Assembly (NCBI RefSeq): GCF_027107535.1
Contig: NZ_CP114283.1
Location: 6,572,001-6,636,000, forward strand
Reading direction: 5' to 3'
Length of the DNA: 64,000 bases
DNA from: Streptomyces aurantiacus
GTDB lineage: Bacteria > Actinomycetota > Actinomycetes > Streptomycetales > Streptomycetaceae
This document shows positions 38,119 to 54,104 of this stretch, piece after piece. Each line of letters opens with the position of its first letter. The stretch's first letter is position 1. Made by a program: the position numbers and the translations under genes. A model generated the notes under the pieces. It searched no databases. It was not told the origin of the DNA and saw only the letters and a program-made list of their open reading frames with translations.

Positions 38119-38763
38119 TCACCTCCTGGGGAGCAGCAAAGAACGGTGCCATTCGAAGAAAGCGGGTAGAACGGCACGAAGAACACGGAAGGCTGATATT
38201 CCACCGCGCACCGTGCCGATCCGGACGAGTTCATGTTCTGGAGCGTCCACGACCACCCGTACGGCCGCAACCGGGCGCACGCCCGCGCGGACGGCGCGGT
38301 GAAGCGTGGCCGCCGACTCCATGTCGACCGCGATCGCGCCGGTCGCGAGCAGATCCGACCGTTCCTGGCCGCGCACGACGTGATCGGAACCGGTGAGGGG
38401 TCCCGTGTGGACGGTGCGCCCGGGCACGGCACGCATCAGTTCCTTGACCAGCAGGTCGGCTCCCACACACGGCGTGGTGCCGCGTGGGTCCCGGGTCTCC
38501 TCGGCGACGACCAGGTCTCCCGGGTGCATACCGGGGGCGAGCCCGGCACAGAAGCCCGTGGCCAGGACGGCCGCACCCTGCAGAGAGGGACCGGCCAGGG
38601 CCCGGCCGACCGCCCGCTCGGCGGCCTTGGGCCCCATGCCCGTACGCAGCACGGTGACCGGGCCGTCGGCCCCGCCGCGGCTGCCGCCGGTGCGCAGGGC
38701 GAGGTGCTCGATGCCGAGCGCGCAGGCGATCAGCAGCGGGGCGGCGGCCGGTGTGCCGGTCAT
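38119..38763 (-). CDS. hpnG: Adenosylhopane nucleosidase / hopanoid-associated phosphorylase (HpnG)
   Basis: 214 aa, nucleoside phosphorylase-like fold (PNP/UDP family). LLIACALGIEHLAL, VLRTGMGPKAAERAV, VLATGFCAGLAPGMHPGDLVVAEE and the active-site AIAVDMESAATLHRA. It removes adenine from adenosylhopane to yield ribosylhopane. ATG at 38763 overlaps the shc stop (ATGA). Confidence 0.93.
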   Translation of the reverse strand: MTGTPAAAPLLIACALGIEHLALRTGGSRGGADGPVTVLRTGMGPKAAERAVGRALAGPSLQGAAVLATGFCAGLAPGMHPGDLVVAEETRDPRGTTPCVGADLLVKELMRAVPGRTVHTGPLTGSDHVVRGQERSDLLATGAIAVDMESAATLHRAVRAGVRPVAAVRVVVDAPEHELVRIGTVRGGISAFRVLRAVLPAFFEWHRSLLLPRR

Positions 38764-40781
38764 CCGCTCCCCCTGCCCGCCGGGCCGCGCGGACCGGCGA
38801 AGGGTTCGCCGTTGACGTACCGGCCGAGCGCGGTGAGCGGGAAGACCTGGCGGTAGAGGTGGTAGTTGATCGAGAAGTCCCACGGGAACCCGGTGCCGGT
38901 GAAGTACGGCTCGTCCCAGGAGCCGTCCGCCAGCTGGGTCTCCGCGAGCCAGGCGACACCACGCTCGGCGGCCTTGGAGTCCCGCTCCCCGGCCGCGAGC
39001 AGCGCCAACAGCGCCCACCCGGTCTGGGACGCGGTCGACGCGCCCCGCCCGCTCCACTCGGCGGCGTCGTGGTAGGAGCGCAGGTCCTCGCCCCAGCCGC
39101 CGTCGTCGTTCTGCACGGTCTCCAGCCAGGCGACCGCCCGACGGATCGCGGGATGCGAGGCGGGCAGTCCGGCTGCCACCAGGGCGGGCACCACCGACCC
39201 TGTCCCATAGACGTAGTTGACGCCCCAGCGGCCGAACCAGGAGCCGTTCGCCTCCTGTTCGGCGAGCAGCCACTCGATACCGCGGCGGGTGCGCGGGTCG
39301 TGGGCCAGCCCTTCGACGGCGAGCATCTCCACGACGTGTGCGGTGACGTCGGCGGACGGCGGGTCGATGACCTCGCCGAAGTCGCAGAACGGCAGCCGGT
39401 TGGGGAAGGGGCTGGTGTTGTCGACGTCGAAGGCGCCCCACGCGCCGTTCTTGGACTGCATGCCGAGGTTCCAGCGCACCCCGCGCCCGATGGCCTTCTC
39501 CACTCGCTCCGGGTCGTGGTGCTTGACCCGGCGCAGCGCGAGGACCACCTCGGCGGTGTCGTCGATGTCCGGGTAGTTGTCGTTGTGGAACTCGAACGCC
39601 CAGCCTCCGGGCGCGAGTCCGGGCCGCTTGACCGCCCAGTCGCCGGGTCGGACGATCTCCTCTCCGAGCATCCAGTCCGCGGCCCTCACCAGCTGCGGAT
39701 GATCGGCGGGCACGCCCGCGTCGGCGAGCGCGATGGTCGCGAGGCAGGTGTCCCAGACCGGTGACTGGCAGGCCTCGATCATCCGGGCCCCGTCCTCGCG
39801 CCAGACGGTGAAGCGGTCGAGGGACGCCAGCCCCTCGCGCATCACCGGGTGTTGTAGGTCGTAGCCCAGCAGGTGCAGGGCGATGATCGAGTACACGGCG
39901 GGCGGCTGGATGCCACCCCAGCAGCCGTCGTTCTCCTGGCGCTCGATGATCCAGCGGGCCGCGGTGTTCATCGCGGCTCTGCGGAGCCGGCGCGGGGCGA
40001 CCTTGCGGTAGACGTGCAGGGCCTTGTCGAGCCGCTGGAAGGCTCCGTCCCAACTCGCCACCGGGGCGAGGGGCTTGACCGGGTTGGGGTCACGGTGGTC
40101 GGTGTGCAGCTCGTCCAGCGCGAAGGGCGCGGGCCGTACCGGGCGTTTTGCCGAGACGACGGTGAGCGGCACGATGGTCTGCCGGGCCCAGCAGCCGAAG
40201 TCGTAGATGTTGAGCGGCACCCACTTCGGGAAGTAGATGAGCTCAGGGGGCAGTTCGGGGAGGTCGTCCCACTTCCACCAGCCGAACAGGGCGAGCCAGA
40301 TCCGGGTGAAGACCCGGGCCGCGGCGATGCCGCCCCTTTCACGGATCCACGCGGACGCCTTCGCCATGTGCGGATCGTCCGGCGCGTCACCGGCCAGCCG
40401 CAGGGCGACGTACGCCTCGATGGTGGTGGAGAGTTCGCCCGGTCCGCCGTAGAAGGAGGCCCAGGTGCCGTCCTCGCGCTGCTCGCCGCGGACGAACAGT
40501 GCGGCGGCGTGCGTGGTCTTCTCGTCGTGGATGCCCAGGAACTGACGGAGCAGCAGGTCTTCGGCGTCCATCGTGACGTTGGTCTCGAGGTCGCCCTTCC
40601 ACCAGCCCTCGGCGTCCTGCGTGGCGAGCAGGAAGTCGGTGGCGCGCTGTATCGCGCGCGCGGCGGCGTCTGGGATATCGGCTGTCCCGGCCGCCGCGGG
40701 AATCGATTCTGTCCGGATGTCGCTGGCCGAGGCAGCGCGGGGCGGCAGGGCCCCGGTGCTTCCGTCGGTCGTCGCTGTCAT
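38760..40781 (-). CDS. shc: Squalene-hopene cyclase
   Basis: 673 aa. Membrane-bound monotopic enzyme that cyclises squalene to hopene and hopanol. Catalytic DIDDTAEV (DxDD motif, about 355-362); QW repeats such as QENDGCWGG, NGAWGAFDVDN, EANGSWFGRWG, DDGGWGED and DGSWDEP; conserved end GTGFPWDFSINYHLYRQVFPL. ATG at 40781 behind GGGGAA; an ATG 24 bases upstream has no good site. It starts a new block 112 bases after the polyprenyl synthase gene, so a second promoter is possible there. Confidence 0.97.
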   Translation of the reverse strand: MTATTDGSTGALPPRAASASDIRTESIPAAAGTADIPDAAARAIQRATDFLLATQDAEGWWKGDLETNVTMDAEDLLLRQFLGIHDEKTTHAAALFVRGEQREDGTWASFYGGPGELSTTIEAYVALRLAGDAPDDPHMAKASAWIRERGGIAAARVFTRIWLALFGWWKWDDLPELPPELIYFPKWVPLNIYDFGCWARQTIVPLTVVSAKRPVRPAPFALDELHTDHRDPNPVKPLAPVASWDGAFQRLDKALHVYRKVAPRRLRRAAMNTAARWIIERQENDGCWGGIQPPAVYSIIALHLLGYDLQHPVMREGLASLDRFTVWREDGARMIEACQSPVWDTCLATIALADAGVPADHPQLVRAADWMLGEEIVRPGDWAVKRPGLAPGGWAFEFHNDNYPDIDDTAEVVLALRRVKHHDPERVEKAIGRGVRWNLGMQSKNGAWGAFDVDNTSPFPNRLPFCDFGEVIDPPSADVTAHVVEMLAVEGLAHDPRTRRGIEWLLAEQEANGSWFGRWGVNYVYGTGSVVPALVAAGLPASHPAIRRAVAWLETVQNDDGGWGEDLRSYHDAAEWSGRGASTASQTGWALLALLAAGERDSKAAERGVAWLAETQLADGSWDEPYFTGTGFPWDFSINYHLYRQVFPLTALGRYVNGEPFAGPRGPAGRGSG

Positions 40782-40893
40782 GGCTTCCCCTTCGTGCAGT
40801 GGCATGTCTCTGCTGTGGGTCCGCCGTCGGCCGGTGCTCGTTTTCCCGCAGCACCGGCCGGCGACTACGCGAGGTTTATTCGACCGATAGTGA

Positions 40894-42024
40894 TCATCTC
40901 TTTCGGACGACGACGAAGTCGGCGAGCTCCACGAACTGGGCCCGTACCCGGTCCGGCATGTGGATCATGTCGAGCGCCTCGATGGCGACGGTGTGCTGCC
41001 GGCGCGCCTCCTGGGCGGTCCACTCGCGGCCGCCGGCCTCCTCGATGAGAGCTGCGCGCACGGCGAACTCCTCCTCGGAGAAGTTCTCGAAGTCGCTGCT
41101 CCTGGCGTCCTCGGCGAGCAGTTCACCGAGGCGCGCGGAGGCCGGGCCGCCCGCCGCGAGCGCGGCGACGACCGGCAGGGACTTCTTGCGCTGACGCAGG
41201 TCGCTCCAGGTCTGCTTGCCGGTGGCCACCGGGTCGCCCCAGATGCCTAGCAGGTCGTCGACGGCCTGGAAGGCGAGGCCGAGGTGGTAGCCGTACTTCT
41301 CCAGCGTGTCGGCCGTGCGGTCGTCGGCGCCGCCGAGGACCGCGCCGATGGAACAGGCGCAGGCGAGCAGCGCACCCGTCTTGTTGCCCTCCATCTCCAG
41401 GCACTCCTCGACGCTGACACGGTCGCGGTGCTCGTAGGAGATGTCCTGGGCCTGGCCGTCGATCAGCGCGCGCGTGGCGGTGGTCAGGCGGCGCGTGGCA
41501 CGGCCCGCCTCGACCGTGCCGAGTTCCAGGAGCAGTTCGTTGGCCAGGGCGAACAGGGCGTCGCCGACGAGGATCGCCTGCGCGGGGCCGTGCACCTTCC
41601 AGACGGTGTCACGGTGGCGGCGCTGCTCGTCGCCGTCCATCAGGTCGTCGTGCAGGAGTGAGAAGTTGTGCACCAGTTCGACGGCGACCGCGCCCGGCAC
41701 GCCCACCTCGGGGGCCGCGCCGGCCGCCTCGGCGGACAGGACGGCGAGGGCGGGACGTACGGCCTTGCCGCCGTCGCCGTCGGCGGGGTTGCCCTCGGCG
41801 TCGATCCAGCCGAAGTGGTAGGCGGCAACGGTGTCCATAGGAGGTGCCAGGCGGTCGATGGCCGCCCGCAGTACCGGTGTGGCCAGGGTCCGGCCGCGCT
41901 CCAGGAGCGCGGTCACGTCCACCGCGTCGGCAGCCTTGGATGCCGGGGGCACAGTGGGCACAGTCTCTCCTCTACTTGCGATACGGGGGGTGCGGGAGCC
42001 TGCCGCGCTCTGGTCGAGCGTCAC
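40894..42024 (-). CDS. Polyprenyl (farnesyl-type) diphosphate synthase of the hopanoid cluster
   Basis: 376 aa. Trans-prenyltransferase with the first Asp-rich motif LLHDDLMDGD (about 128-137) and the second VDDLLGIWGD (about 280), plus GGKAVRPALAVLSAEA. It should elongate DMAPP with IPP to farnesyl diphosphate, the substrate of HpnD; chain length is inferred from context. A stretch of about 55 residues precedes the fold. GTG start overlaps hpnE by 4 bases (GTGA). Confidence 0.92.
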   Translation of the reverse strand: MTLDQSAAGSRTPRIASRGETVPTVPPASKAADAVDVTALLERGRTLATPVLRAAIDRLAPPMDTVAAYHFGWIDAEGNPADGDGGKAVRPALAVLSAEAAGAAPEVGVPGAVAVELVHNFSLLHDDLMDGDEQRRHRDTVWKVHGPAQAILVGDALFALANELLLELGTVEAGRATRRLTTATRALIDGQAQDISYEHRDRVSVEECLEMEGNKTGALLACACSIGAVLGGADDRTADTLEKYGYHLGLAFQAVDDLLGIWGDPVATGKQTWSDLRQRKKSLPVVAALAAGGPASARLGELLAEDARSSDFENFSEEEFAVRAALIEEAGGREWTAQEARRQHTVAIEALDMIHMPDRVRAQFVELADFVVVRKR

Positions 42025-43445
42025 GCCGCCTCCTCGAAGAGCTCGAAGAGGTGGTCGCGGGGCCGGCCCAGGGCGCTCAGCGCGGCGTGGGCCGCGCTCA
42101 CGCCGCTGCGGACCGCACTCTCCATGGTCGCGGGCCACCCTGTGGCGGTCCACGCGCCGGCCAGGTAGAGGCCGGTTGCCTTGGTGCGGGCGCCGGGCCG
42201 CAGCCGTCCGACGCCGGGGGCCGGGGCGAACGTCGCCGTGCGCTCCCGGGTCACGAAGAAGTCCCGTACCTCGGCGCCACGGGTGCCGGGCAGCAGCCGC
42301 TCCAGCTCCGGCAGATACCGCTCGCGCAACACCGAGACCGGTTCGTCGATCTCGTCCTGCGCGGCGGACTGGGACAGTGCGAGGTACTGGCCCTGCGAGA
42401 GTCCGGACGCCTCGGTCCGGTCGAAGACCCACTGCACCGGGGAGCCGAGCGCGGCGAAGAACGGCCGGGCGAGCACCTTCCGGTCGTACACGACGTGGAT
42501 GTTGAGGATCGGCGCCGTACCGATGTCGAGCAGCCGCTCGGGGGCGTCGAGCGCGCCGTCGGGCAGCAGGTCGTGGGCCTCGCGCTGCGGCACGGCGAGC
42601 ACGACCGTGTCGGCGTCGAGCGTCTCGCCGGGAACCTGAACGCTCCAACGCCCGTTCCCGTGTTGGGAGATGGAGGTGACGCGTGTACGGACTTCGGTAC
42701 GGACGCCCGCGGAGTCGAGCGCCTTGCGGGCCAGCCGGTCGTGCAGTTCGCCCAGCGGGACGCGTGCCCAGCCGATGTCGGCCGCGCCCGGGTCGGAGAG
42801 CAGACCGGTCTTGAACACCATCGCGGCGAGCCCGAGCGAAGCGTCGCCGGCCACCGCGTTGAGAGTGGCGACCCCCACGAGGTCCCACAGTGCCTCGACG
42901 GCACGCTCCGACTGACCGTGCTCGGCCAGCCAGGTGCCGAAGTTCTGCGCGTCGAGCGCCGGGTCGGCGAGGTCGAGCCCCTTGAGTGCCAGTGCGGCAC
43001 GACCGACCTTGGCGCGCTCCGAGAGCGACAGATGGGGATATGTGGCGAGGCTGCGCGCCAGATGCAGCGGTACGGGCAGCGCCGTGCGGCCGATTCTGCC
43101 GAGTCTGCGTCCCGGTTCGCCCTCCGCGTCGAGGACGGGGACGTCGAGACGGTCCTGCAGCGGCGCGAGTTCGGCTCCGTCGACACGGTCGAGGAACCAG
43201 CGGTAGGCGGTGCAGCAGCGCATGTACACGTGCTGGCCGTTGTCCACGGTGAGTCCGTCGCGCTGGAAGGAGAAGGCGAGCCCGCCGAGCCGGGGCCGGC
43301 CTTCGAGCAGCGTCACCCGCACTCCCGCGTCGGCGAGCGCGAGCGCCGCGGTCATCCCCGCGAGCCCCCCGCCGACCACCACGGCCGTCGCGGGGCCGCT
43401 CGGCGGGTCCGCATCGAGTTCCTCGTCCTGCGTCGTGTCGTTCAT
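42021..43445 (-). CDS. hpnE: Hydroxysqualene dehydroxylase (HpnE), FAD-dependent
   Basis: 474 aa. Phytoene-desaturase-like amine-oxidase family: FAD-binding [35 protein letters not shown] near the N-terminus, VDNGQHVYMRCCTAYRWFLDR, C-terminal GLYLAGAWTATGWPATMESAVRSG. It reduces hydroxysqualene to squalene, the third step of the HpnCDE route. ATG at 43445 behind GAAGGTG; this ATG overlaps the stop of a 46-aa ORF (ATGA). Confidence 0.94.
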   Translation of the reverse strand: MNDTTQDEELDADPPSGPATAVVVGGGLAGMTAALALADAGVRVTLLEGRPRLGGLAFSFQRDGLTVDNGQHVYMRCCTAYRWFLDRVDGAELAPLQDRLDVPVLDAEGEPGRRLGRIGRTALPVPLHLARSLATYPHLSLSERAKVGRAALALKGLDLADPALDAQNFGTWLAEHGQSERAVEALWDLVGVATLNAVAGDASLGLAAMVFKTGLLSDPGAADIGWARVPLGELHDRLARKALDSAGVRTEVRTRVTSISQHGNGRWSVQVPGETLDADTVVLAVPQREAHDLLPDGALDAPERLLDIGTAPILNIHVVYDRKVLARPFFAALGSPVQWVFDRTEASGLSQGQYLALSQSAAQDEIDEPVSVLRERYLPELERLLPGTRGAEVRDFFVTRERTATFAPAPGVGRLRPGARTKATGLYLAGAWTATGWPATMESAVRSGVSAAHAALSALGRPRDHLFELFEEAA

Positions 43446-43582
43446 CGTGCACCTTCCCCCGCGGCCTCGCCGTGCCGGTGGAACGGGGCACGGCCGGCCG
43501 TTGAAGTCAGGGACGCCGTCCCCGGCCGGAGGGTTGCGCACCGTTTCCCGGTACTTGCGTCGTCTTGGTCCGGACTGTCCAT
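43442..43582 (-). CDS. Small 46-aa protein between hpnD and hpnE (DUF6380-like)
   Basis: The ATG shares a base with the hpnD stop (TGATG) and its TGA overlaps the hpnE ATG (ATGA), so it fills the 136-base gap exactly. It begins MDSPDQDDASTGKR and ends RAPFHRHGEAAGEGAR; basic C-terminal half, one cysteine, no membrane helix. I recall a similar short family (DUF6380) in Streptomyces but cannot verify it. Its minimum role may be to couple translation of hpnD and hpnE. Confidence 0.7.
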   Translation of the reverse strand: MDSPDQDDASTGKRCATLRPGTASLTSTAGRAPFHRHGEAAGEGAR

Positions 43583-44532
43583 CAGGCGCGCCTCCTGACG
43601 GTGCGGCGGGAGACGTGCCGGGCGTCGAGCCCGGAGAGGCCCCGCACGGCGACGTACGCCTTCTCGCGTCCGGGCAGCGAGACCCGGCCGCGCAGGACGG
43701 CCTCCGGTTCGCGCTCGATGCGGTCGAGGAGGCGGCGGTAGATGCCGGCCATCGCGGCGACACAGGCGCCGCTGCGGCGGTCCAGCATCGGCAGCAGCCG
43801 GTAACCCTCCGCGAAAAGCGCGCGGGCCCGACGCACTTCGAAGTGCACGAGGCCCGCGAAGTCGGAGCCCTCCGGTGGATGCGCCCCGTCGAACCCGGCC
43901 GAGCAGCCGAACTTCGCGAGGTCGTCCGCGGGCAGGTAGGTCCGTCCGCCCTCGGCGTCCTCCCGAACGTCCCTGAGGATGTTGGTGAGTTGCAGCGCGA
44001 GCCCGAGCGTGTCCGCGTACTCCGGCGCCCGCTCGGCTCCGCGCGCCCCCGGTTCCGTACCGAACACTCCGAGCGAGAGCCGGCCGATGGCCCCGGCGAC
44101 GCAGCGGCAGTAGACCCTCAGGTCGTCCCAGGTCTCGTAGGTCTCGCCGCGGACGTCCATCAGGACTCCGTCGATGAGTTCGTCGAGGCCGTCGAGCGGG
44201 ACCGGGAAGTGGTCCGCCGTGTGGCGAAGGGCGACGGCGACAGGGTCGGTGTCGTCCTCGTCCACGGAGCGGTCGCGGACGCGGGCGAGCAGCGCCCGGG
44301 TCTCCTCGAGCCGCGCGGCCTTGACGTCGGGGGCGAGCGCGCCGTCACCGATGTCGTCCACGCGCCGCGAGAACGCGTACAGCGCCGACATGGCGCGGCG
44401 CTTGGGCGTCGGCAGCAGCCGGATGCCGTACGCGAAGTTGCGGGCCTGCTGTCCGGTGACCGCCTCGCAGTAGCCGTAAGCGGCGAGTACCGGTGCGGAC
44501 ATGCGTGGTTCCGACTCCACGGTCCGGATCAC
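43582..44532 (-). CDS. hpnD: Presqualene diphosphate synthase (HpnD)
   Basis: 316 aa, squalene/phytoene synthase fold. Condenses two farnesyl diphosphates to presqualene diphosphate. Asp-rich motifs RRVDDIGDG (about 56) and NILRDVREDAEGGRTYLP (about 190). GTG at 44532 overlaps the hpnC stop (GTGA); an internal ATG at 44502 (MSAPVLAAYGYC) would also leave the fold intact. Confidence 0.94.
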   Translation of the reverse strand: MIRTVESEPRMSAPVLAAYGYCEAVTGQQARNFAYGIRLLPTPKRRAMSALYAFSRRVDDIGDGALAPDVKAARLEETRALLARVRDRSVDEDDTDPVAVALRHTADHFPVPLDGLDELIDGVLMDVRGETYETWDDLRVYCRCVAGAIGRLSLGVFGTEPGARGAERAPEYADTLGLALQLTNILRDVREDAEGGRTYLPADDLAKFGCSAGFDGAHPPEGSDFAGLVHFEVRRARALFAEGYRLLPMLDRRSGACVAAMAGIYRRLLDRIEREPEAVLRGRVSLPGREKAYVAVRGLSGLDARHVSRRTVRRRA

Positions 44533-45431
44533 CCCTCTCCTCGCAGAGTCACTCCCACCTCGCGCAGCAACTGGATCTTGCCGGGCTTGGGCGGGCCGGG
44601 AAGTACGTCGTATTCGGCGGCGGCGATCGCTCGGATCGCCGCCCTTCCTCCCGCGACGAAGCCCGCGAGCAGCAGCCTCAGCCTGCCGTGGACGCTACCC
44701 ACGAGGGGGGTGCCTTCATTCAGGAGGTGCCGGGCGCGTTCTGCTTCGTATGCAACCAGTGCGCGCACCGATGCGCCTGCCGTTCGTGCGGCGAGATCCG
44801 CCTCCTGGACGTGAAAACGCTTCATGTCCTCGGCGGGCAGGTAGACACGGTCGCGGCCGAGGTCCTCGGCGACGTCCTGGAGGTGCTCGACGATCTGCAG
44901 CGCCGTACAGACCGCGTCCGAGCGGCGGACCCGTTCGGGAGTCGAGGTCCCCGTGACGGAGAGGACCAGACGGCCCACCGGGTTGGCGGACAGCTCGCAG
45001 TAGGCGAGGAGCTCGTCGTAGGTCTCGTACCGCTTGACGAGCTGGTCCTGGCGGTTCGCCGCGATCAGCCCGAGGAAGGGCTCGGGGGTCAGGCCGGCAC
45101 GGCGGACCGTCGGCTGGAGGCGGCGCAGGAGCGGGTGGCCGGGAGTCGAGTCGAAGACCTTGCGCAGGTCCGCCTCGAAGGCGTCGAGCAGGACGAGCCG
45201 GTCCTCGGCCTCTGCCGGGGAGACGCCCAGGAGGCGGGCGTCGGCACCGCCGGGGGCCAGGTCCCCGTCCCCGATGTCGTCGACCAGCCGGGCGAATCCG
45301 TAGACGGCCATGAGGTCGTCGCGCCAGGCCCTGGGCAGGAAGAACGGCGCCACGGGAAAGTTCTCGTGAGCGGCCTTGGCGAGGGTGGTGCGCTCCGGGT
45401 CGCCGGCGCGCGCCGTCCCGGCCGGCGTCAC
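44529..45431 (-). CDS. hpnC: Hydroxysqualene synthase (HpnC)
   Basis: 300 aa, second squalene/phytoene synthase-fold protein. Converts presqualene diphosphate to hydroxysqualene. AAHENFPVAPFFLPRAWRDDLMAVYGFARLVDDIGDGDL near the start (DDxGD), VEHLQDVAEDLGRDRVYLPAEDM for the second motif. First main gene of the hopanoid operon. GTG start overlaps the stop of a 21-codon upstream ORF by 4 bases (GTGA). Confidence 0.94.
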   Translation of the reverse strand: MTPAGTARAGDPERTTLAKAAHENFPVAPFFLPRAWRDDLMAVYGFARLVDDIGDGDLAPGGADARLLGVSPAEAEDRLVLLDAFEADLRKVFDSTPGHPLLRRLQPTVRRAGLTPEPFLGLIAANRQDQLVKRYETYDELLAYCELSANPVGRLVLSVTGTSTPERVRRSDAVCTALQIVEHLQDVAEDLGRDRVYLPAEDMKRFHVQEADLAARTAGASVRALVAYEAERARHLLNEGTPLVGSVHGRLRLLLAGFVAGGRAAIRAIAAAEYDVLPGPPKPGKIQLLREVGVTLRGEG

Positions 45432-45646: not shown

Positions 45647-45744
45647 CCGCCATGACCCGTCGGGGTGTCCGGCACATCACAAGAACACACCGATTGGCGT
45701 CAAGATTCCTAAGGACGACCGGAGTTGGCCCATTCTTTGCAGAC

Positions 45745-45780
45745 GCAGGGCCCCGTCGGAACGTTCCGACGGGGCCCTGC
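45745..45780 (-). terminator. Terminator of the TagGH-type exporter operon
   Basis: A 36-base perfect palindrome with 18-base arms (GCAGGGCCCCGTCGGAAC and its complement), 20 bases past the stop of the ATPase gene. It isolates the exporter operon from the hopanoid operon transcribed in the same direction. Confidence 0.88.
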
Positions 45781-45800
45781 ACTGTCTCGGGCGATCCGGG

Positions 45801-46580
45801 CTACTTGCCCGTGAACTTCTCGTACTCCTTGATGACCTCGTCGGTCGGGCCGTCCAGGCGCAGCTCGCCGCGCTCCAGCCACAGGACGCGGTCGCAGGTG
45901 TCACGGATCGACTTGTTGTTGTGGCTGACGAGGAACACCGTGCCGGCCTCCTTGCGGAGCTCCCGGATGCGGGCCTCGGAACGCTTCTGGAACTTGCGGT
46001 CGCCCGTGGCGAGGGCCTCGTCGATCATGAGGACGTCGTGGTCCTTGGCGGCCGCGATGGAGAAGCGCAGACGGGCGGCCATGCCGGAGGAGTAGGTACG
46101 CATCGGCAGGGTGATGAAGTCGCCCTTCTCGTTGATGCCCGAGAAGTCGACGATGTCCTGGTAGCGCTCCCTGATCTGCTCGCGGGACATGCCCATGGCG
46201 AGCCCGCCGAGGATGACGTTCCGTTCGCCCGTGAGGTCGTTCATCAGGGCCGCGTTGACACCGAGGAGCGAGGGCTGGCCGTCGGTGTAGACGTGGCCCC
46301 GCTCCGCGGGGAGCAGCCCCGCGATGGCCCGCAGGAGGGTGGACTTGCCGGAGCCGTTGGAGCCGATCAGGCCGATGGCCTCGCCCCGGTAGGCGTTGAA
46401 GGAGACGCCTCGGACGGCGTGCACCTTGCGGACGCCCCGCTCCTCGCCGCGCTTGATTATGCGGCTGAGGGCGGCGGTCGCGCTGCCCTTGCCGGTCTTG
46501 GCGCCGTTGACCCGGTAGACGATGTGCAGCTCGTCCGCGATGACGGTGGGGATCTTGTCCCCGGTGTTCAGCTCAGCCAC
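45801..46580 (-). CDS. ABC transporter ATPase for polysaccharide/teichoic acid export (TagH-like)
   Basis: 259 aa. Walker A LIGSNGSGKST (about 72-82), signature TYSSGMAARLRFS, Walker B VLMIDEALATGD, H-loop FLVSHNN. The DEALATGD and SSGM forms are those of polymer exporters (TagH, RfbE, Wzt), not of nutrient importers. No C-terminal glycan-binding domain, so it is the short TagH type. GTG start overlaps the permease gene by 8 bases. Confidence 0.92.
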   Translation of the reverse strand: MAELNTGDKIPTVIADELHIVYRVNGAKTGKGSATAALSRIIKRGEERGVRKVHAVRGVSFNAYRGEAIGLIGSNGSGKSTLLRAIAGLLPAERGHVYTDGQPSLLGVNAALMNDLTGERNVILGGLAMGMSREQIRERYQDIVDFSGINEKGDFITLPMRTYSSGMAARLRFSIAAAKDHDVLMIDEALATGDRKFQKRSEARIRELRKEAGTVFLVSHNNKSIRDTCDRVLWLERGELRLDGPTDEVIKEYEKFTGK

Positions 46581-47508
46581 GGCCGTACCGCTCCTCAGCC
46601 TTCCAGAAGTACACGAATCCGCCGACGGCGACGAGGACGGCCCAGCCGCCCGCGACGGCCCACACGTGAGGCGGCAGCACCTCGCTCGCGGGGCCGTAGC
46701 CGTCGATCAGCGCGAAGCGCATCAGGTCCATGTAGATGGCGGCCGGGTTCCACTGGAGGATGTCGGCGATCCAGGCAGGGTGCTTCTCCAGCATCACCGG
46801 GATGGAGAACATGACGCCGGACGCGTACATCCACGTACGCATCACGAACGGCATGAGCTGCGCGAGGTCCGGGGTCTTGGAACCCATCCTGGCCATGATC
46901 ATCGCGAGGCCGGTGTTGAACAGGAACTGCAGGGCCAGCACCGGGAGGATCAGCAGCCAGGAAAGCCGCGGGTAGCTGCCGAAGGCGATCGTCACGACGA
47001 ACAGCACGATCATCGAGAACAGCAGCTGCTGGAGCTGCTGCAGCGAGAACGAGATCGGCAGCGAGGCACGCGGGAAGTGCAGCGCCCGGACCAGCCCGAG
47101 GTTGCCGGAGATCGCGCGCACGCCCGCCATCACCGAGCTCTGGGTGAAGGTGAAGACGAACACACCCGTCACCAGGAACGGGATGTAGACCTCACGGGAC
47201 ATGCCACGGTCGGCCTGCAGGATGAGGCCGAAGATCAGGAAGTACACGGCCGCGTTCAGCAGCGGCGTGGCCACCTGCCACAGCTGGCCGAGCTTGGCCT
47301 GGCTGTACTGGGCGGTGAGCTTCGCCTGCGAGAAGGCGAGGATGAAGTGACGCCGTCCCCAGAGCTGGCGGACGTACTCGACGAGCCCGGGCCGGGCGCC
47401 GCTCACGGCCAGCCCGTACTTGGCGGCGAGGTCCGCCGCGGAGAGCCCTTCATCGGGCGACGGACGGGCGCTCACCGCGACACCACCGTCATGCGTTGTC
47501 TCACTCAC
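46573..47508 (-). CDS. ABC transporter permease for polysaccharide/teichoic acid export (TagG-like)
   Basis: 311 aa, ABC2-type permease: cytoplasmic start of about 50 aa, then about six membrane segments (for example LLNAAVYFLIFGLILQA, IPFLVTGVFVFTFTQSS, LLFSMIVLFVVTIAFGS, WLLILPVLALQFLFNTGLAM, VWAVAGGWAVLVAVGGFVYFW). Conserved LGQLWQVATPLLNAAVYF and WNPAAIYMDLMRFALIDG. It should carry a lipid-linked surface polymer across the membrane with the ATPase. GTG start, about 98 bases after the glycosyltransferase gene. Confidence 0.92.
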   Translation of the reverse strand: MSETTHDGGVAVSARPSPDEGLSAADLAAKYGLAVSGARPGLVEYVRQLWGRRHFILAFSQAKLTAQYSQAKLGQLWQVATPLLNAAVYFLIFGLILQADRGMSREVYIPFLVTGVFVFTFTQSSVMAGVRAISGNLGLVRALHFPRASLPISFSLQQLQQLLFSMIVLFVVTIAFGSYPRLSWLLILPVLALQFLFNTGLAMIMARMGSKTPDLAQLMPFVMRTWMYASGVMFSIPVMLEKHPAWIADILQWNPAAIYMDLMRFALIDGYGPASEVLPPHVWAVAGGWAVLVAVGGFVYFWKAEERYGRG

Positions 47509-47606
47509 AAGTGGAAACTTTCGTCCTCAGGATGCGCGGCCTGGTCGGGCGTAGGCCAAAGACAGGGACCGGGGTACGGCCCGAATGCTCTCAGATATCG
47601 AGCTTG

Positions 47607-48500
47607 TCAGATGACGGGTGGTCGGCCCAGACGGGTCAGGCGCCATACCGTACGCCACTTCATGGGGCGCCGGGGCCCGCACGGGCTGGTCCAGCCCTCC
47701 TTGAAACCGCCGAACCAGGCCCGCAGGGCGGGGCGGGAAGGACGGCGGGCGAGGGTGAGCAGCATCCACACGCCGAGGTAGACGGGGACCAGCGGGGCGG
47801 GCAGGTTGCGACGGGCGAGCCAGACGCGGTTGCGGGCGACCATCCGGTGGTAGATCGCGTGCCGCGAGGGCGCCGTCGTGGGGTGGTACAGCACCATGTC
47901 CGAGCGGTAGTCGATCATCCAGCCCGCGTCGAGGGCCCGCCAGGCGAGGTCAGTCTCCTCGTGGGCGTAGAAGAACTCGTCGGGCAGTCCGCCGACCTCG
48001 GCGAGCACCTTCGTACGGACCGCGTTGGCGCCGCCGAGGAAGGTGGTGACGCGGGAGCTGCGCATCGGGTCGGAGGCGCGCAGCCGTGGCACGTGGCGGC
48101 GCTGGGTGATCCCCGTCTCGGGGTCGGCGATGCGGAAGCTGATGATGCCGAGCTCCGGGTCGTCCGTGAACGCCTGCCGGCAGAGCTCGGCGGTGTCGTG
48201 GTGCGCGAGGAGACCGTCGTCGTCCAGGAAGAGCAGGACGTCCACGTCGGTGCCGCCGGGGCCGAACGCCTCGATGCCGACGTTGCGGCCGCCGGGGATG
48301 CCGAGGTTCTCGGGCAGTTCGACCGTGCGGACGCCCGGTATGGACCCGGTGACGTCCGGGACGGGCGAGCCGTTGCCGACCACGACCACCTCGACCGGGG
48401 CGCCGTCCTGCTTGGCGACCGAGTCGAGGAGGGCGCGGAGTTCGTCGGGGCGGTTGCCCATGGTGATGATCACCGCGCCGACCTTCGGGGCCGTGCTCAC
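47607..48500 (-). CDS. Glycosyltransferase family 2
   Basis: 297 aa. GT2/GT-A fold: VGAVIITMGNRPDELRALLDSV, VVVVGNGSPVPDVTG, LPENLGIPGGRNVGIEAFG, metal-binding LLFLDDDGLLAH (DDD), then FFYAHEETDLAWRALDAGW (ED motif of rhamnosyl/galactofuranosyl-type enzymes). A short C-terminal hydrophobic segment (LPAPLVPVYLGVWMLLTLA) may hold it to the membrane. GTG start in a GTGA overlap with the phosphotransferase gene. Likely adds a sugar to the polymer exported by the ABC pair. Confidence 0.9.
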   Translation of the reverse strand: MSTAPKVGAVIITMGNRPDELRALLDSVAKQDGAPVEVVVVGNGSPVPDVTGSIPGVRTVELPENLGIPGGRNVGIEAFGPGGTDVDVLLFLDDDGLLAHHDTAELCRQAFTDDPELGIISFRIADPETGITQRRHVPRLRASDPMRSSRVTTFLGGANAVRTKVLAEVGGLPDEFFYAHEETDLAWRALDAGWMIDYRSDMVLYHPTTAPSRHAIYHRMVARNRVWLARRNLPAPLVPVYLGVWMLLTLARRPSRPALRAWFGGFKEGWTSPCGPRRPMKWRTVWRLTRLGRPPVI

Positions 48501-49276
48501 TTCAGCCTGCTCGAGGCGAGGATGGACACGAGGTGCAGCAGGGTCTGCAGCATGGCGATGCCGGCCAGGACCGCGACGCCGAGCCGCGAGAAGAAGAGGT
48601 CGTCCCTGACCGTGTCCAGCACCGCGAGGACCAGGATCAGCAGGGAGGCCTCGATGCCGAGGACGAGCCGGTGGAACTTGAGCGCGCCCGCGGCCCGGCG
48701 GGCCAGCGCCATGCCGGAGGAGCGCGGCTCGGACGCCGACTCCTGGACGGGCGCCTTGCCGGTCTGGTGCCGGGCGACCCCGACGAGGTCGGTCTCGGAC
48801 TTGATCAGTATGGCGCCGAGGGCGGCCAGGGTACCGAGGAAGGCCCACAGCCAGTCGATCCGCCCGGTGCCCCACAGGTCCGCGGCGCGCAGGCCGAAGC
48901 CGACCAGGACCGCGGCGTCGCACAGGTAGGCGGCGACGCGGTCGACGTACACCCCGGTCATCGAGTACTGCTTGCGCCAGCGGGCGATCTCCCCGTCGAC
49001 GCAGTCGAAGAGCAGGTAGAGCTGGACCATCAGCACGCCGAGCAGGGCGCCGGGGATGCCCGGCACCAGCAGGGCCGGCGCGGCGAGCACGCCGAAGACG
49101 GTCATCACGTAGGTCAGCTGGTTGGGCGTGACCCGCGTGTTCACCAGGTGCCGGTCGATGCGCAGCGAGATCTCGCGCATGTAGAGCCGGCCTCCCCAGT
49201 GCTCGCCGCTCCGCCGGTCCTTCACACCCGGAGGGTGCACGACCGGGCGGAGCTCAGCTACCGATGGCTTTTGCAT
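48497..49276 (-). CDS. CDP-alcohol phosphatidyltransferase family protein with altered active-site motif
   Basis: 259 aa, about six membrane segments. The CDP-alcohol phosphotransferase signature is present as DCVDGEIAR, then G after 8 residues and D after 3 more, but the final aspartate is alanine (YVDRVAAYL). Residues before it (RVTPNQLTYVMTVFGVLAA) match the family N-terminus. It should transfer a CMP-activated phosphoalcohol to an acceptor, unless the lost aspartate makes it inactive or a subunit of the larger enzyme in this operon. The start overlaps the dehydrogenase gene by 23 bases. Confidence 0.88.
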   Translation of the reverse strand: MQKPSVAELRPVVHPPGVKDRRSGEHWGGRLYMREISLRIDRHLVNTRVTPNQLTYVMTVFGVLAAPALLVPGIPGALLGVLMVQLYLLFDCVDGEIARWRKQYSMTGVYVDRVAAYLCDAAVLVGFGLRAADLWGTGRIDWLWAFLGTLAALGAILIKSETDLVGVARHQTGKAPVQESASEPRSSGMALARRAAGALKFHRLVLGIEASLLILVLAVLDTVRDDLFFSRLGVAVLAGIAMLQTLLHLVSILASSRLK

Positions 49277-50315
49277 AGTCGGCGTATGCGTCCCTGATCT
49301 GGTCGGTGGAGAGGTCGAGGTGTTCGAGGATCGTGTAGCGGCCCGGCCGGGTCGTCGGAGCGAACTCCACGACCTGGACGAACTCGTCCGGGGTGAAGCC
49401 GATCTCCTCGGGCAGTACGGGCAGTCCGTGACGTCGCAGGACCTCGGCCATGTACGCCGACTCCTCGCGCGCCCCGCGCAGGTGCATCGCGAAGGCCGCG
49501 CCCAGGCCGCACTGCTCGCCGTGGCTGGCCGCACGCTTGGGGAAGAGCAGGTCGAAGGCGTGGTTGATCTCGTGGCAGGCGCCGGACGCCGGGCGGGAGT
49601 CGCCCGCGACGGACATGGAGATGCCGGTGAGGACCAGGCCCTCGGCGAGCACCTGGAGGAAGCCGTCGTCGCCGACGCCGCCCGGGTGCCGCAGCACGGC
49701 CTCGCCGGCCTGGCGGGCCATCGCGGCGGCGAGACCGTCGATCTGCTCGCCCTTCTCGCGGTTGGCCAGCTCCCAGTCCGCGACCGCGGAGATGTTGGAC
49801 AGGGCGTCGCCGATGCCGGAGCGCACGAAGCGGACCGGGGCCTCACGGATCACGTCGAGGTCGATGACGACGGCGATCGGGTTCGGCACACCGTACGAGC
49901 CGCGGCCCGCGTCGTTGTCGAGGGTCGCGACGGGCGAGCACAGACCGTCGTGCGAGAGGTTCGTGGCGACGGCGACCAGCGGGAGGCCGATACGGGCCGC
50001 GGCGAACTTCGCGCAGTCGATGATCTTGCCGCCGCCGAGGCCCACGACCGCGTCGTAGCGCCCCTTCTTCATGGCGTCGGCGAGCTTGATCGCGTCGTCC
50101 AGGGTGCCGCCGCCGACCTCGAACCAGTCGGCGCCCGGCATCGCCGGGGTCAGCCGGTCGCGCAGCTTGGCTCCGGAACCGCCGCTGATCGCGACGGCCA
50201 GCTTGCCCGAGTGCGAGATGCGCTGGTCCGCGAGGACCGCCGCGAGGTCGTCCAGGGCGCCCGGACGGATGTCGACGACGACCGGCGAGGGGATGAGCCT
50301 CGTCAGTACTGGCAC
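49254..50315 (-). CDS. Glycerol-1-phosphate dehydrogenase-like protein (iron-containing alcohol dehydrogenase fold)
   Basis: 353 aa. Fe-ADH superfamily, G1PDH/AraM branch (PF13685): cofactor motif VVGLGGGKIIDCAKFAA, then metal ligands in NLSHDGLCSP, HEINHAFD and ASHGEQCG. Such enzymes reduce dihydroxyacetone phosphate to sn-glycerol 1-phosphate, the archaeal-type enantiomer. Placed between a cytidylyltransferase and CDP-alcohol transferases, it probably supplies the phosphoalcohol that is activated. GTG start overlaps the upstream gene by 13 bases. Confidence 0.88.
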   Translation of the reverse strand: MPVLTRLIPSPVVVDIRPGALDDLAAVLADQRISHSGKLAVAISGGSGAKLRDRLTPAMPGADWFEVGGGTLDDAIKLADAMKKGRYDAVVGLGGGKIIDCAKFAAARIGLPLVAVATNLSHDGLCSPVATLDNDAGRGSYGVPNPIAVVIDLDVIREAPVRFVRSGIGDALSNISAVADWELANREKGEQIDGLAAAMARQAGEAVLRHPGGVGDDGFLQVLAEGLVLTGISMSVAGDSRPASGACHEINHAFDLLFPKRAASHGEQCGLGAAFAMHLRGAREESAYMAEVLRRHGLPVLPEEIGFTPDEFVQVVEFAPTTRPGRYTILEHLDLSTDQIRDAYADYAKAIGS

Positions 50316-51055
50316 GCGATCTCACGTCCCTTGGCGAGGTCCTCGTGGTTGTCGATCTCGACCCACTTGACGTCACCGATGGGGGCCACGTCGATACGGA
50401 AGCCGCGGTTCACGAGCTCCTGGTAGCCGTGCTCGTAGAACTGCTGCGGGTCGGTCTCGAAGACCGTCTTGAGCGCGTCGGCGAGCTCGTCGGCGGCGTC
50501 GCCCTCGATCAGGGTGACGCCGATGTACTCACCGGTCGCCTCGGCCGGGTCCATCAGCTTGGTGATCTTGGTCATGCCGCCCTCGGGGCCGACGACGACC
50601 TTCATCTCCTCGTCGGCGAGGGACTTCACCGTGTCGAGGGCGAGGATGATCTTCTTGCCGTCGCCGCGGGCGGCGAGCAGGGTCTTCTCGACGGAGACCG
50701 GGTGCACGGTGTCGCCGTTGGCGAGGATCACCGAGTGCTTGATGGCGTCACGGCCGCACCACAGGGAGTAGGCGTTGTTCCACTCCTCGGCCTTGTCGTT
50801 GTCGATCAGGGTGATCTTGACGCCGTACTTCTGCTCCAGCGCCTCGCGGCGCTCGTAGACGGCTTCCTTGCGGTACCCGACGATGATGGCGACCTCGGTC
50901 AGGCCGATCTCGGCGAAGTTGCCGAGGGTGAGGTCGAGCACGGTGATGCTGTCCTCGTTGCCCTCGGGTCCCACCGGCACCAGAGCCTTGGGCAGGGTGT
51001 CGGTGTAGGGGCGCAGACGCCGTCCGGCGCCGGCAGCCAGCACGAGGCCGATCAT
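50303..51055 (-). CDS. CTP-type sugar/alcohol-phosphate nucleotidyltransferase (IPCT/LicC-like)
   Basis: 250 aa, GT-A-like nucleotidyltransferase. Signature LVLAAGAGRRLRPYTDTLPKALVPV, ILANGDTVHPVS for the metal site, WVEIDNHEDLAKGREI at the end. Closest in pattern to CTP:inositol-1-phosphate and CTP:phosphocholine cytidylyltransferases. It probably makes the CDP-alcohol used by the two phosphotransferases. ATG at 51055 overlaps the upstream gene by 4 bases. Confidence 0.87.
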   Translation of the reverse strand: MIGLVLAAGAGRRLRPYTDTLPKALVPVGPEGNEDSITVLDLTLGNFAEIGLTEVAIIVGYRKEAVYERREALEQKYGVKITLIDNDKAEEWNNAYSLWCGRDAIKHSVILANGDTVHPVSVEKTLLAARGDGKKIILALDTVKSLADEEMKVVVGPEGGMTKITKLMDPAEATGEYIGVTLIEGDAADELADALKTVFETDPQQFYEHGYQELVNRGFRIDVAPIGDVKWVEIDNHEDLAKGREIACQY

Positions 51056-52848
51056 GCGGGTTCTCCTTCATCGTGTACGGCGGGTGCGCCGCGCCTGTGG
51101 GCGGTCACCCAGAAGCTGATGCTCTCGACGAGCACCAGCAGTGCCACGGCCACGGCGAAAGCCGTGAGCGCGACCTTGAAATCTGTGGCGGCGAGCAGCG
51201 CGGCCAGGACGGTGACCAGCAGCGTCCTGCCTTCGTGCCCGCCGATCGCCCGCACCAGCCAGTGCGGAGGCGCGCCGGCGTTGCCGCGGATGCGGTACAC
51301 CGTGTCGTAATGATGGTAGGCGACCGCACCCACCAGGCCGAAAGCCGCTGGAAGGGCGCCGTTCACATCGGCTTCGGCCGCCAGTACCAGGACGGTCCCG
51401 TACTCGGCCGCCCGGAAGAACGGCGGAACCAGCCAGTCCAGGGCGCCCTTCAGCGGCCGCTGGAGGGCCACGGGCGACAGCAGGACGTAGACACCGGCGC
51501 CCAGGACGGGCCACCAACTGCCGTACGGGGAAAGCCAGGACGCAAGGACGACGAGGGCGCCGGCGACCAGGGCGACGGCGGCCGGACCGCCGAGGCGCAC
51601 ACCGCGTCCCAGGCGCGCCAGGAGCTCGGCGAGCGGACCCGAGTCGGTCAGGTCGGCGAGGGCCTGCGCGGCCCGGTCGGTGCGCTGCGCCTTGCGGGTC
51701 AGCGACCTGAGGACCCGGCCCGCCGTCGTGTACGTCGCGGCGAGCGCGCATCCGACGAGCAGGGCGTAGAAGGTGATGCGGGGGGTCGTCAGCGCGGTGA
51801 GCACGGCGATCATGGCCCAGCGCTCGCCGATGGGCAGGACGATCATCCGGCGCAGCCAGACCGTCCAGCCGACGCTGTCGAGCTTGTCGGAGAGTGCGGC
51901 GGTGGGGCTGGTGTTGGCGGTGGCGTCGTGGTTCGCCTCGTTGAAGGAGAAGTCGACGACGTGCCGGCAGATCTGCAGGACCATCGCGCCGAGGGCGAGC
52001 GCCCATACGTCGTCGCCGCCCCGGGCCGCGCCGAGGGCGAGGCCCGCGTAGTAGGCGTACTCCTTGGCGCGGTCGAAGGTCGCGTCGAGCCAGGCTCCGA
52101 GCGTGGAGTACTGCAGGGAGTAGCGGGCGAGCTGGCCGTCCGTGCAGTCGAGGACGAAGGAGAAGAGGAGCAGCAGGCCCGCGGCGACGAAGCCGGCGCG
52201 GGTGCCGGTCGCCGCACAGCCGGCCGCGATCAGCGCGGTGATCAGCGATGCCGTGGTGACCTGGTTCGGCGTGAAGCCGCGACGGGCGCACCAGCGGGCG
52301 AGATAGCGGGAGTACGGGCTGATGCAGTACGTGGTGAAGAAGCCGTCGCGGGACTTCACGGCCGTGCGCAGCCGGATCGCCTCGTCGTCGACGGTGGCGA
52401 GGGCCTGCCGGGCCTCGTTGCGCGCCTGCGGGTCCCTCGGGACCTCGGCGACGAGTTCACCCAGCTCGGGCCGGTGCAGATCGGTGTCGAGGGCGTCCGC
52501 GACACGGTCGGCGACGATGCCCACCACCACGGAACCGTTCGACGCGTCGTCGGAGGCCGTGCGCAGCGCCCGGGCCAGCGCCGGCCGGGCCGCGGGCCGG
52601 GCGGTGACGGCGCCGGGGATCGCGGCTGCCTCGAAGCGTGGGTCGGTCAGGCCGAGCCGCAGCGCGTGGACGTGACCCACGAAGCGGGAGTCGACGACGG
52701 CGACCCGCTGGTTCGCGGGGACGGCGGCGAGGAGCGTCTCGGCGTCGGCCGCGTCGGTGGCGACCCGCACGTCGAAGCCGAGCGACCGCAGATCGCCCTC
52801 GAGCGACGATCCGGGGACCGGCTGACCGGTGAGGATGGCGGTCGACAG
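51052..52848 (-). CDS. Large CDP-alcohol phosphotransferase family protein with N-terminal extension and DUF5941-like C-terminus
   Basis: 598 aa if started at a CTG at 52848 behind GAGGAG; the first standard start in frame (GTG 52770) would cut off ILTGQPVPGSSLEGDLRSLG, which continues the same alpha/beta fold. N-terminal domain of unknown role (about 1-170), then a CDP-alcohol phosphotransferase domain with the complete motif DCTDGQLAR...G...D...D (about 260-285) and membrane segments, then a membrane-rich C-terminal part (about 390-590, DUF5941-like). First gene of a fully overlapping operon. It probably joins a CDP-alcohol to a lipid or sugar acceptor. Confidence 0.85.
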   Translation of the reverse strand: MSTAILTGQPVPGSSLEGDLRSLGFDVRVATDAADAETLLAAVPANQRVAVVDSRFVGHVHALRLGLTDPRFEAAAIPGAVTARPAARPALARALRTASDDASNGSVVVGIVADRVADALDTDLHRPELGELVAEVPRDPQARNEARQALATVDDEAIRLRTAVKSRDGFFTTYCISPYSRYLARWCARRGFTPNQVTTASLITALIAAGCAATGTRAGFVAAGLLLLFSFVLDCTDGQLARYSLQYSTLGAWLDATFDRAKEYAYYAGLALGAARGGDDVWALALGAMVLQICRHVVDFSFNEANHDATANTSPTAALSDKLDSVGWTVWLRRMIVLPIGERWAMIAVLTALTTPRITFYALLVGCALAATYTTAGRVLRSLTRKAQRTDRAAQALADLTDSGPLAELLARLGRGVRLGGPAAVALVAGALVVLASWLSPYGSWWPVLGAGVYVLLSPVALQRPLKGALDWLVPPFFRAAEYGTVLVLAAEADVNGALPAAFGLVGAVAYHHYDTVYRIRGNAGAPPHWLVRAIGGHEGRTLLVTVLAALLAATDFKVALTAFAVAVALLVLVESISFWVTAHRRGAPAVHDEGEPA

Positions 52849-53135: not shown

Positions 53136-54104
53136 ATGACATGGCTGATCACAGGCGGGGCTGGATACATCGGGGCGCACGTGGCACGGGCCATGGCCGA
53201 GGCCGGGGAGCGCGTGCTCGCGCTCGACGACCTCTCGGCCGGGGTCCCCGCGCGGCTGCCCGACGGCATCCCGCTCGTCCAGGGTTCGGCGCTGGACGGG
53301 GAGTTGCTGAAGCGGGTCCTCGCCGAGCACGCGGTGACGGGTGTGGTGCACCTGGCCGCGCGCAAGCAGGTCGGCGAGTCCGTGGCCCAGCCCACGCGCT
53401 ACTACCAGGAGAACGTCGGCGGACTCGCCACGCTCCTCGACGCGGTCGCCGGGGCGGGTGTCGAGCGTTTCGTCTTCTCCTCGTCCGCGGCCGTCTACGG
53501 CAACCCGGATGTGGATCTCATCACGGAGGACACCCCGTGCGCCCCGATGAGCCCCTACGGCGAGACGAAGCTCGCGGGTGAGTGGCTGGTGCGGGCCGCG
53601 GGGCGCGCGCACGGCATCAGGACCGCGTGCCTGCGCTACTTCAACGTGGCGGGCGCCGCCGCCCCGGAGCTGGCGGACACCGGGGTCTTCAACGTGGTCC
53701 CGATGGTCTTCGACCGGCTCACGCGCGACGAGGCCCCCCGGATCTTCGGCGACGACTATCCGACGCCGGACGGCACATGCGTACGCGACTACATCCATGT
53801 CGCCGACCTCGCCGAGGCACATCTGGCGGCGGCCCGGCTGCTGGTCACGGCGGACACCCCGGGCGATCTGACGGTGAACATCGGCCGCGGCGAGGGCGTT
53901 TCGGTGCGCGAACTCCTGACGCTCATCGGCGAGGTCACCGGCGACACCCGCCCCGTGCTCGTGGAACCGCGCCGCCCCGGCGACGCCCCGCGTGCGGTCG
54001 CCTCGGCCGCGCTGGCCGCCGAGAAGCTGGGCTGGAGCGCCCGGCGCGGGATGCGCGAGATGGTCGATTCGGCGTGGCAGGGCTGGCAGCTGCACCACTC
54101 GTGA
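53136..54104 (+). CDS. galE: UDP-glucose 4-epimerase
   Basis: 322 aa, extended short-chain dehydrogenase. NAD-binding GGAGYIGAHVA at the start, catalytic YGETK (about 140) with SSSAAVYG, substrate loop FNVAG and DYIHVADLAEAH. Interconverts UDP-glucose and UDP-galactose. There is no clear ribosome-binding site before the ATG, so a leaderless transcript is possible. A strong terminator follows. It may feed galactose into nearby surface-polymer synthesis or the Leloir pathway. Confidence 0.94.
   Translation: MTWLITGGAGYIGAHVARAMAEAGERVLALDDLSAGVPARLPDGIPLVQGSALDGELLKRVLAEHAVTGVVHLAARKQVGESVAQPTRYYQENVGGLATLLDAVAGAGVERFVFSSSAAVYGNPDVDLITEDTPCAPMSPYGETKLAGEWLVRAAGRAHGIRTACLRYFNVAGAAAPELADTGVFNVVPMVFDRLTRDEAPRIFGDDYPTPDGTCVRDYIHVADLAEAHLAAARLLVTADTPGDLTVNIGRGEGVSVRELLTLIGEVTGDTRPVLVEPRRPGDAPRAVASAALAAEKLGWSARRGMREMVDSAWQGWQLHHS

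Follow-up and report, generated by a model that had tools for sequence, protein, structure and literature searches.

A block of seven genes in a 64,000-nucleotide stretch of the Streptomyces aurantiacus genome (the whole stretch is referred to here as the window) appears to encode a wall teichoic acid (WTA) branch of some actinobacteria, in which an sn-glycerol 1-phosphate dehydrogenase (G1PDH) and a nucleotidyltransferase (NT) would replace GpsA and TagD and pass CDP-glycerol to membrane phosphotransferases that prime the chain. We put the probability of this reading at about 0.6. The gene block, its conservation, its link to the polymerase TagF and the lack of TagD are computational observations. 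Genomic support for a WTA-linked pathway variant is good.

A conserved gene block built around a dehydrogenase and a nucleotidyltransferase

All seven genes were located where an earlier sequence-only reading had placed them, and Pfam and NCBIfam agreed with the gene classes that it had named. They run from 52848 to 45801 in the following order:

51052..52848, minus strand: CDP1, a CDP-alcohol phosphotransferase of 598 residues with a CTG start, in which a degenerate nucleotidyltransferase domain precedes the phosphotransferase domain and DUF5941 follows it (Pfam CDP-OH_P_transf at residues 193-337, DUF5941 at 391-598)
50303..51055, minus strand: NT, a CTP-type nucleotidyltransferase (NTP_transferase) and predicted glycerol-phosphate cytidylyltransferase; best PDB profile matches LicC 1jyk, PntC 6pd1 and 4jd0
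49254..50315, minus strand: G1PDH/AraM-type dehydrogenase (Fe-ADH_2; archaeal G1PDH is the best NCBIfam model)
48497..49276, minus strand: CDP2, a second CDP-alcohol phosphotransferase (CDP-OH_P_transf), with Ala at the position of the fourth motif Asp
47607..48500, minus strand: GT2 glycosyltransferase (Glycos_transf_2, 47.6 bits)
46573..47508, minus strand: TagG/Wzm-type exporter permease (ABC2_membrane; galactan Wzm model 52.7 bits, below its cut-off)
45801..46580, minus strand: TagH/Wzt-type exporter ATPase (TagH is the best NCBIfam model, 179.6 bits against a cut-off of 320)

The first five genes had been described as overlapping, and we measured overlaps of 4, 13, 23 and 4 nt between them. 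The TagG- and TagH-type genes overlap by 8 nt, and a gap of 98 nt separates GT2 from TagG; it holds a weak terminator-like match at 47566-47582, one of 3 such sites in the region against 1.8 expected.

The distribution of the block was assessed in a phylum sample of 296 actinobacterial genomes from 198 genera. NT was found in 17 genomes (E <= 1e-15) and G1PDH in 47 (E <= 1e-20), with at least 47% identity in 14 of the latter. DUF5941 was present in 13, and the dehydrogenase, NT and DUF5941 were each present in all nine Streptomyces genomes sampled. Neighborhoods were examined for part of the genomes with matches. The order CDP1-NT-G1PDH-CDP2-GT2 was observed in G183 and G086. In G108 one contig carries these genes split between two pieces, G045 has all of them but CDP1, and G204 has NT-G1PDH with another phosphotransferase.

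Among named genomes, counts were made on the best 80 loci. NT adjoins G1PDH in 77 of them, so this adjacency is far from chance. In the remaining three, either the contig ends at NT (L131) or no G1PDH lies in the stretch covered (L103 and L104). The contig that ends at NT is 3.7 kb long and labelled as a Bifidobacterium breve metagenome-assembled genome; it may be a contaminant. G1PDH is followed by CDP2 in 52 loci and by another phosphotransferase (CDPx) in 23, and GT2 follows CDP2 in 51. BLAST placed CDP1 upstream in 35 of the 80, which is an undercount because Pfam detected DUF5941 where BLAST was weak (L115). The block recurs in several actinobacterial orders, and its gene order is kept across distant actinobacteria. 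The proposal of a surface polymer pathway that relies on a CDP-alcohol and includes a G1PDH-type enzyme is supported. In Streptomyces fungicidicus the same order is annotated as a DUF5941 protein, a phosphocholine cytidylyltransferase family protein, an iron-containing alcohol dehydrogenase, a CDP-alcohol phosphatidyltransferase, a glycosyltransferase, an ABC permease and an ABC ATPase, flanked by galE and hpnC.

Plasmid records yielded relatives from Streptomyces, Nonomuraea and distant relatives only. On a Nitratidesulfovibrio plasmid, a G1PDH-like gene (L189:7815-8864) is flanked by genes for secretion and regulation and lacks a wall context.

Properties of the dehydrogenase and NT

The archaeal G1PDH model was the best NCBIfam match to the dehydrogenase by a wide margin, at 236.7 bits, below its cut-off of 413. 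Profile comparison with the PDB gave 232 bits to the solved G1PDHs 4rgq/4rfl, 199 and 139 bits to two further G1PDHs, and 85 bits to the best canonical glycerol dehydrogenase after 3ce9. D123, H248 and H265 are invariant in all 10 aligned sequences; we take them to be the metal-ligand Asp and two His of the G1PDH/AraM family. The protein shares these metal ligands and an SRPxSG..H..H block with the solved G1PDHs. When the dehydrogenase was used as a query, its own locus was the sole match in the genome at E <= 1e-20. Other Fe-ADH_2 matches in the genome (L002/L023 and L003/L024) were set aside as weaker (46.6 and 40.5 bits). The protein resembles AraM/EgsA G1PDHs in its best curated model, its metal-ligand positions and its match to solved structures, but it differs in scoring below the archaeal model cut-off and in lying among wall genes instead of beside PcrB/GGGPS.

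The NT profile matched LicC at 97 bits, and PntC and 4jd0 at 88 and 75 bits over nearly the full length. The PDB profile match to the LicC phosphocholine cytidylyltransferase covered residues 3-106 only, and no full-length match including the acceptor half was obtained; because the full-length alignments are with PntC and 4jd0, the acceptor site is not fixed by homology. The closest named relatives, among those used from the matches listed, are from Streptomyces and are 89 to 96% identical. The database search with NT covered the best 120 of 7999 matches, nearly all Streptomyces where named, and is uninformative on breadth.

TagF is present and TagD is the gap

The sequence-only reading had noted that no TagF is present and took this to mean that the polymer would be new or that the phosphotransferases would make it. 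No TagF was found in the 64-kb window, as it had said. The host genome (9.9 Mb, rated 100% complete), however, encodes four TagF-type PF04464 proteins at 935 to 956 kb, away from the window, and 27 of 30 named NT-carrying genomes, chosen from the 80 loci at about one per genus, carry TagF; the conclusion drawn from its absence is therefore not supported. The genes encoding the four proteins lie in a cluster (L021/L022) that also contains another TagGH pair and another galE, close paralogues of those in the window (TagG 68%, TagH 85% and GalE 68% identical). In two genomes, G204 and Micromonospora halophytica, TagG, TagH, CDP1 and TagF form one run, and a CDP1 phosphotransferase thus adjoins TagF, a further point against that conclusion.

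What NT-carrying genomes lack is TagD, not TagF. The host genome gave no TagD match at E <= 0.001, and none of 31 genomes (the 30 named ones and the host) had TagD over the cut-off, the best score being 87.4 against 165.4 bits. In the phylum sample, TagF was found in 23 genomes and TagD over the cut-off in 8; kinship confounds the comparison of 27/30 with 23/296 for TagF, and no probability is drawn from it here. NT and TagF occur together in 12 sampled genomes, namely nine Streptomyces, G204, G108 and G183. Counted by genus, TagF is present in 14 and NT in 9 of the 198, with 4 shared (P 0.0016). No NT genome in the sample had TagD over the cut-off, and three had matches of 63 to 66 bits. TagF and TagD over the cut-off were found together in 4 genomes, G085 falling just under (132 bits), and five TagF genomes had neither NT nor TagD. 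The exclusion of TagD and NT among the 23 TagF genomes (p 0.0075) is carried by nine genomes of one genus.

Further links to wall polymers were seen in relatives. In G108 NT and a weak TagF match (85 bits) share a contig, about 6 kb apart. In G121 (L183:4647-8280) TagF has a diverged NT (36%) and a diverged G1PDH (38%) as neighbors, and a glycerophosphodiester phosphodiesterase gene is close by; this group is a possible minimal version of the pathway. LCP ligase genes are found within 5 to 10 kb of the block in Nonomuraea and Nocardiopsis (L116 and L115). As to a ribitol route, one Nocardiopsis gene (L115:5622-6416) resembles IspD/TarI and scores below every cut-off. A TagA/WecG-type glycosyltransferase was absent from the host genome and from G023, G193, G307 and G316.

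The system shares with Bacillus-type WTA synthesis (TagO/A/D/B/F/GH) its TagF-type polymerases, a TagGH-type exporter, a CDP-activated alcohol and, in relatives, nearby LCP ligases. Unlike the Bacillus system, it has no TagD and has instead a G1PDH and a nucleotidyltransferase of LicC/PntC fold; membrane CDP-alcohol phosphotransferases lie in the conserved block, the genes are spread over two loci, and TagA was not found in the genome. The exporter and GT2 also score on models of the mycobacterial galactan locus (Wzm/Wzt and GlfT1), but all fall below the cut-offs.

The two phosphotransferases

Two parts of CDP1 flank its phosphotransferase domain:

52369..52848, minus strand: N-terminal part of CDP1, residues 1-160, a degenerate nucleotidyltransferase-like domain (hhalign against the NT alignment)
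51055..51678, minus strand: DUF5941 domain, residues 391-598 (Pfam PF19365, 314.6 bits)

The front domain was compared with the NT family by hhalign using 22 N-terminal stretches, which gave a probability of 94.8% and a pairwise E of 5.4e-8 at about 9% identity. DUF5941 is a separate piece in the relatives L057 and L115; that it might be a second, degenerate phosphotransferase domain was ruled out (hhalign probability 0.4%). The CDP1 motif DCTDGQLAR..GAWLDATFD is intact, with all four Asp (D1, D2, D3 and D4) present; motif counts for CDP1 were mixed with CDP2 and other matches and are used here for the window's own motif alone. The earlier placement of the first gene's start at 52848 agrees with the CTG codon found at 52846-52848 on the minus strand, a start position common to the 10 Streptomyces sequences compared (CTG in 7, TTG in 3). 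It is preceded by a conserved GGAGTGAG, and in the window an in-frame stop lies three codons upstream. Translation of CDP1 thus seems to begin at CTG.

The fourth motif Asp of CDP-alcohol phosphotransferases is the proposed catalytic base. Among the best 65 CDP2 matches, this position is His in 46 and Ala in 16, the remaining 3 being CDP1-type sequences; Ala is found in most Streptomyces and His elsewhere. CDP2 may therefore be an altered or noncatalytic partner. Among solved structures, CDP1 and CDP2 come closest to AF2299 and to the CTP:inositol-1-P cytidylyltransferase/DIPPS (IPCT/DIPPS) fusion, with weak matches of at most 65 bits. Like these archaeal fusions, CDP1 has a nucleotidyltransferase-like domain followed by a CDP-alcohol phosphotransferase, but its front domain is degenerate, the active copy is a separate gene, DUF5941 is added and identity is low.

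Proposed pathway and alternatives

In the pathway that we propose, the enzyme activities, the glycerol substrate, the sn-1 form and the order of steps are predicted from protein families. G1PDH would convert dihydroxyacetone phosphate to sn-glycerol 1-phosphate (G1P), and NT would couple this with CTP to give CDP-1-glycerol, so that the pair would stand in for GpsA and TagD. The CDP-glycerol supplied is probably the sn-1 enantiomer, the stereochemistry being read from the enzyme family alone. GT2 may add a sugar to a lipid-linked primer, onto which CDP1, perhaps with CDP2, would place glycerol phosphate, the role of TagB in Bacillus. The TagF-type enzymes encoded elsewhere would build the chain, perhaps fed by the same CDP-glycerol, and the TagGH-type transporters of the block and its paralogous copy would export the polymer. 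The wider proposal, that in Streptomyces and several other actinobacterial orders at least the WTA linkage unit, and possibly the chain, is made from CDP-1-glycerol, that G1PDH and a cytidylyltransferase other than TagD supply this precursor and that membrane CDP-alcohol phosphotransferases carry out the priming, is held tentatively, at somewhat short of even odds.

Several observations weigh against the WTA branch as proposed. TagF is missing from 3 of the 30 named NT-carrying genomes. In the phylum sample it is missing, at E <= 1e-20, from 5 of the 17 genomes with NT (G003, G005, G045, G086 and G169), of which G045 and G086 carry the block yet have no TagF at threshold. By genus the exclusion of TagD and NT is weak (p 0.063). 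TagA was found in 12 of 25 genomes tested, including Streptomyces humicola; GT2 is therefore not simply a TagA substitute, and initiation steps vary. Among the enzymes themselves, 3ce9, which gave the dehydrogenase its highest PDB score (245 bits), was deposited as a glycerol dehydrogenase, the relatives of NT include aminoethylphosphonate-type enzymes, and CDP2 is without the fourth motif Asp. Finally, the wall polymers described for Streptomyces coelicolor are, in the portion of the source consulted, a phosphate-free teichulosonic acid and a glycerol-free polydiglycosylphosphate, a Gal-GlcNAc phosphate polymer (PMC7831098); these data are from S. coelicolor and the locus data from other genomes. 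Since these polymers are without glycerol, a glycerol phosphate linkage unit is a likelier product in Streptomyces than a main chain.

The same wall pathway could instead activate another polyol phosphate or the sn-3 form, with the dehydrogenase reducing a different ketose or aldehyde phosphate. The G1PDH score of 236.7, far short of the NCBIfam cut-off of 413, a family that also includes glycerol dehydrogenases and dehydroquinate (DHQ) synthases, and the LicC match over residues 3-106, which leaves the NT acceptor site unfixed by homology, all lend this some weight; the metal ligands and SRPxSG..H..H block are nevertheless as in solved G1PDHs, and G1PDH is the best curated model by a wide margin, so that we regard the alternative as unlikely though credible. 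Phosphotransferases like DIPPS/AF2299 could also make an inositol-type product or one resembling glycerophosphoinositol, which would suit the nearest solved relatives of CDP1 and CDP2 and the degenerate nucleotidyltransferase domain kept in front of CDP1. Those structure matches are weak (at most 65 bits), however, no inositol-phosphate synthase lies within the seven-gene block, and the links to GT2, exporter, LCP and TagF favor a wall polymer over a solute; we consider such a product very unlikely.

Coleman et al. (2019) proposed that Streptomyces makes archaeal-like lipids, and the passages seen of that work list Streptomyces species with G1PDH, GGGPS and DGGGPS homologues (PMC6431249). G1P could accordingly serve an archaeal-type ether lipid by the AraM-PcrB route, and the host genome has one PcrB-family match (31.7 bits against a cut-off of 23.9). 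PcrB was found in none of the 30 other NT-carrying genomes, however, the PcrB-like gene of the host lies 2.1 Mb from the block, next to genes for a carbamoyltransferase and a radical SAM protein, and the conserved partners of G1PDH are a nucleotidyltransferase, phosphotransferases and an exporter, which makes an ether-lipid role highly improbable. Least credence is given to phosphonate or phosphocholine tailoring of a glycan of the PntC or LicC type. LicC and PntC are the best PDB matches of NT, and a Sulfitobacter relative (30% identity) adjoins a class V aminotransferase and a CDP-alcohol phosphotransferase, but the LicC match ends at residue 106 and the constant partner is G1PDH (77 of the 80 best loci), not an aminotransferase or choline kinase.

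Flanking features

45740..45784, minus strand: terminator-like hairpin without a U tract (-42.9 kcal/mol, z -8.69, 0/200 shuffles as stable)
53136..54104, plus strand: galE, divergent neighbor (TIGR01179 over its cut-off; a paralogue of 68% identity adjoins the TagF genes of the genome)

The strong terminator described after the block holds as a stable hairpin, but no run of U follows it. The galE of the window may provide UDP-galactose for the same wall polymers. A hopanoid cluster (squalene-hopene cyclase [SHC] and squalene synthase genes, window 38119-45431) lies directly downstream of the block, with the same order in other Streptomyces. The PcrB/GGGPS-family match (L182:5603-7003, at about 4.514 Mb in the host genome) perhaps belongs to a natural-product cluster using G1P.

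Relation to earlier work and significance

The present syntenic region in Streptomyces, with araM, tagGH, and the phosphotransferase and GT2 clusters, was noted under teichoic acid biosynthesis in 2026, and the sections seen give no pathway (PMC13118837). Trees in the excerpts consulted of another study include a Streptomyces G1PDH (PMC5059525), and the passages seen of a further one place AraM notably in Bacillus (PMC13400652). The parts consulted of a paper on Streptomyces wall polymers contain no occurrence of TagF or CDP (PMC11481543). No description of the pathway was found in the open-licence papers searched, and it is apparently undescribed in that literature.

If the proposal is correct, the archaeal-type G1PDH of Streptomyces and other actinobacteria would act in cell-wall rather than lipid synthesis. 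The glycerol in the wall polymer would have the handedness opposite to that in known WTA, since the building block would be the enantiomer of the textbook one. The reading of bacterial G1PDH genes in work on the lipid divide would then change, a field in which, in the portion seen of PMC6431249, archaeal-like lipids are proposed for Streptomyces. The G1PDH-NT pair, in actinobacteria that have TagF and lack TagD, would fill the missing CDP-glycerol step of Streptomyces.

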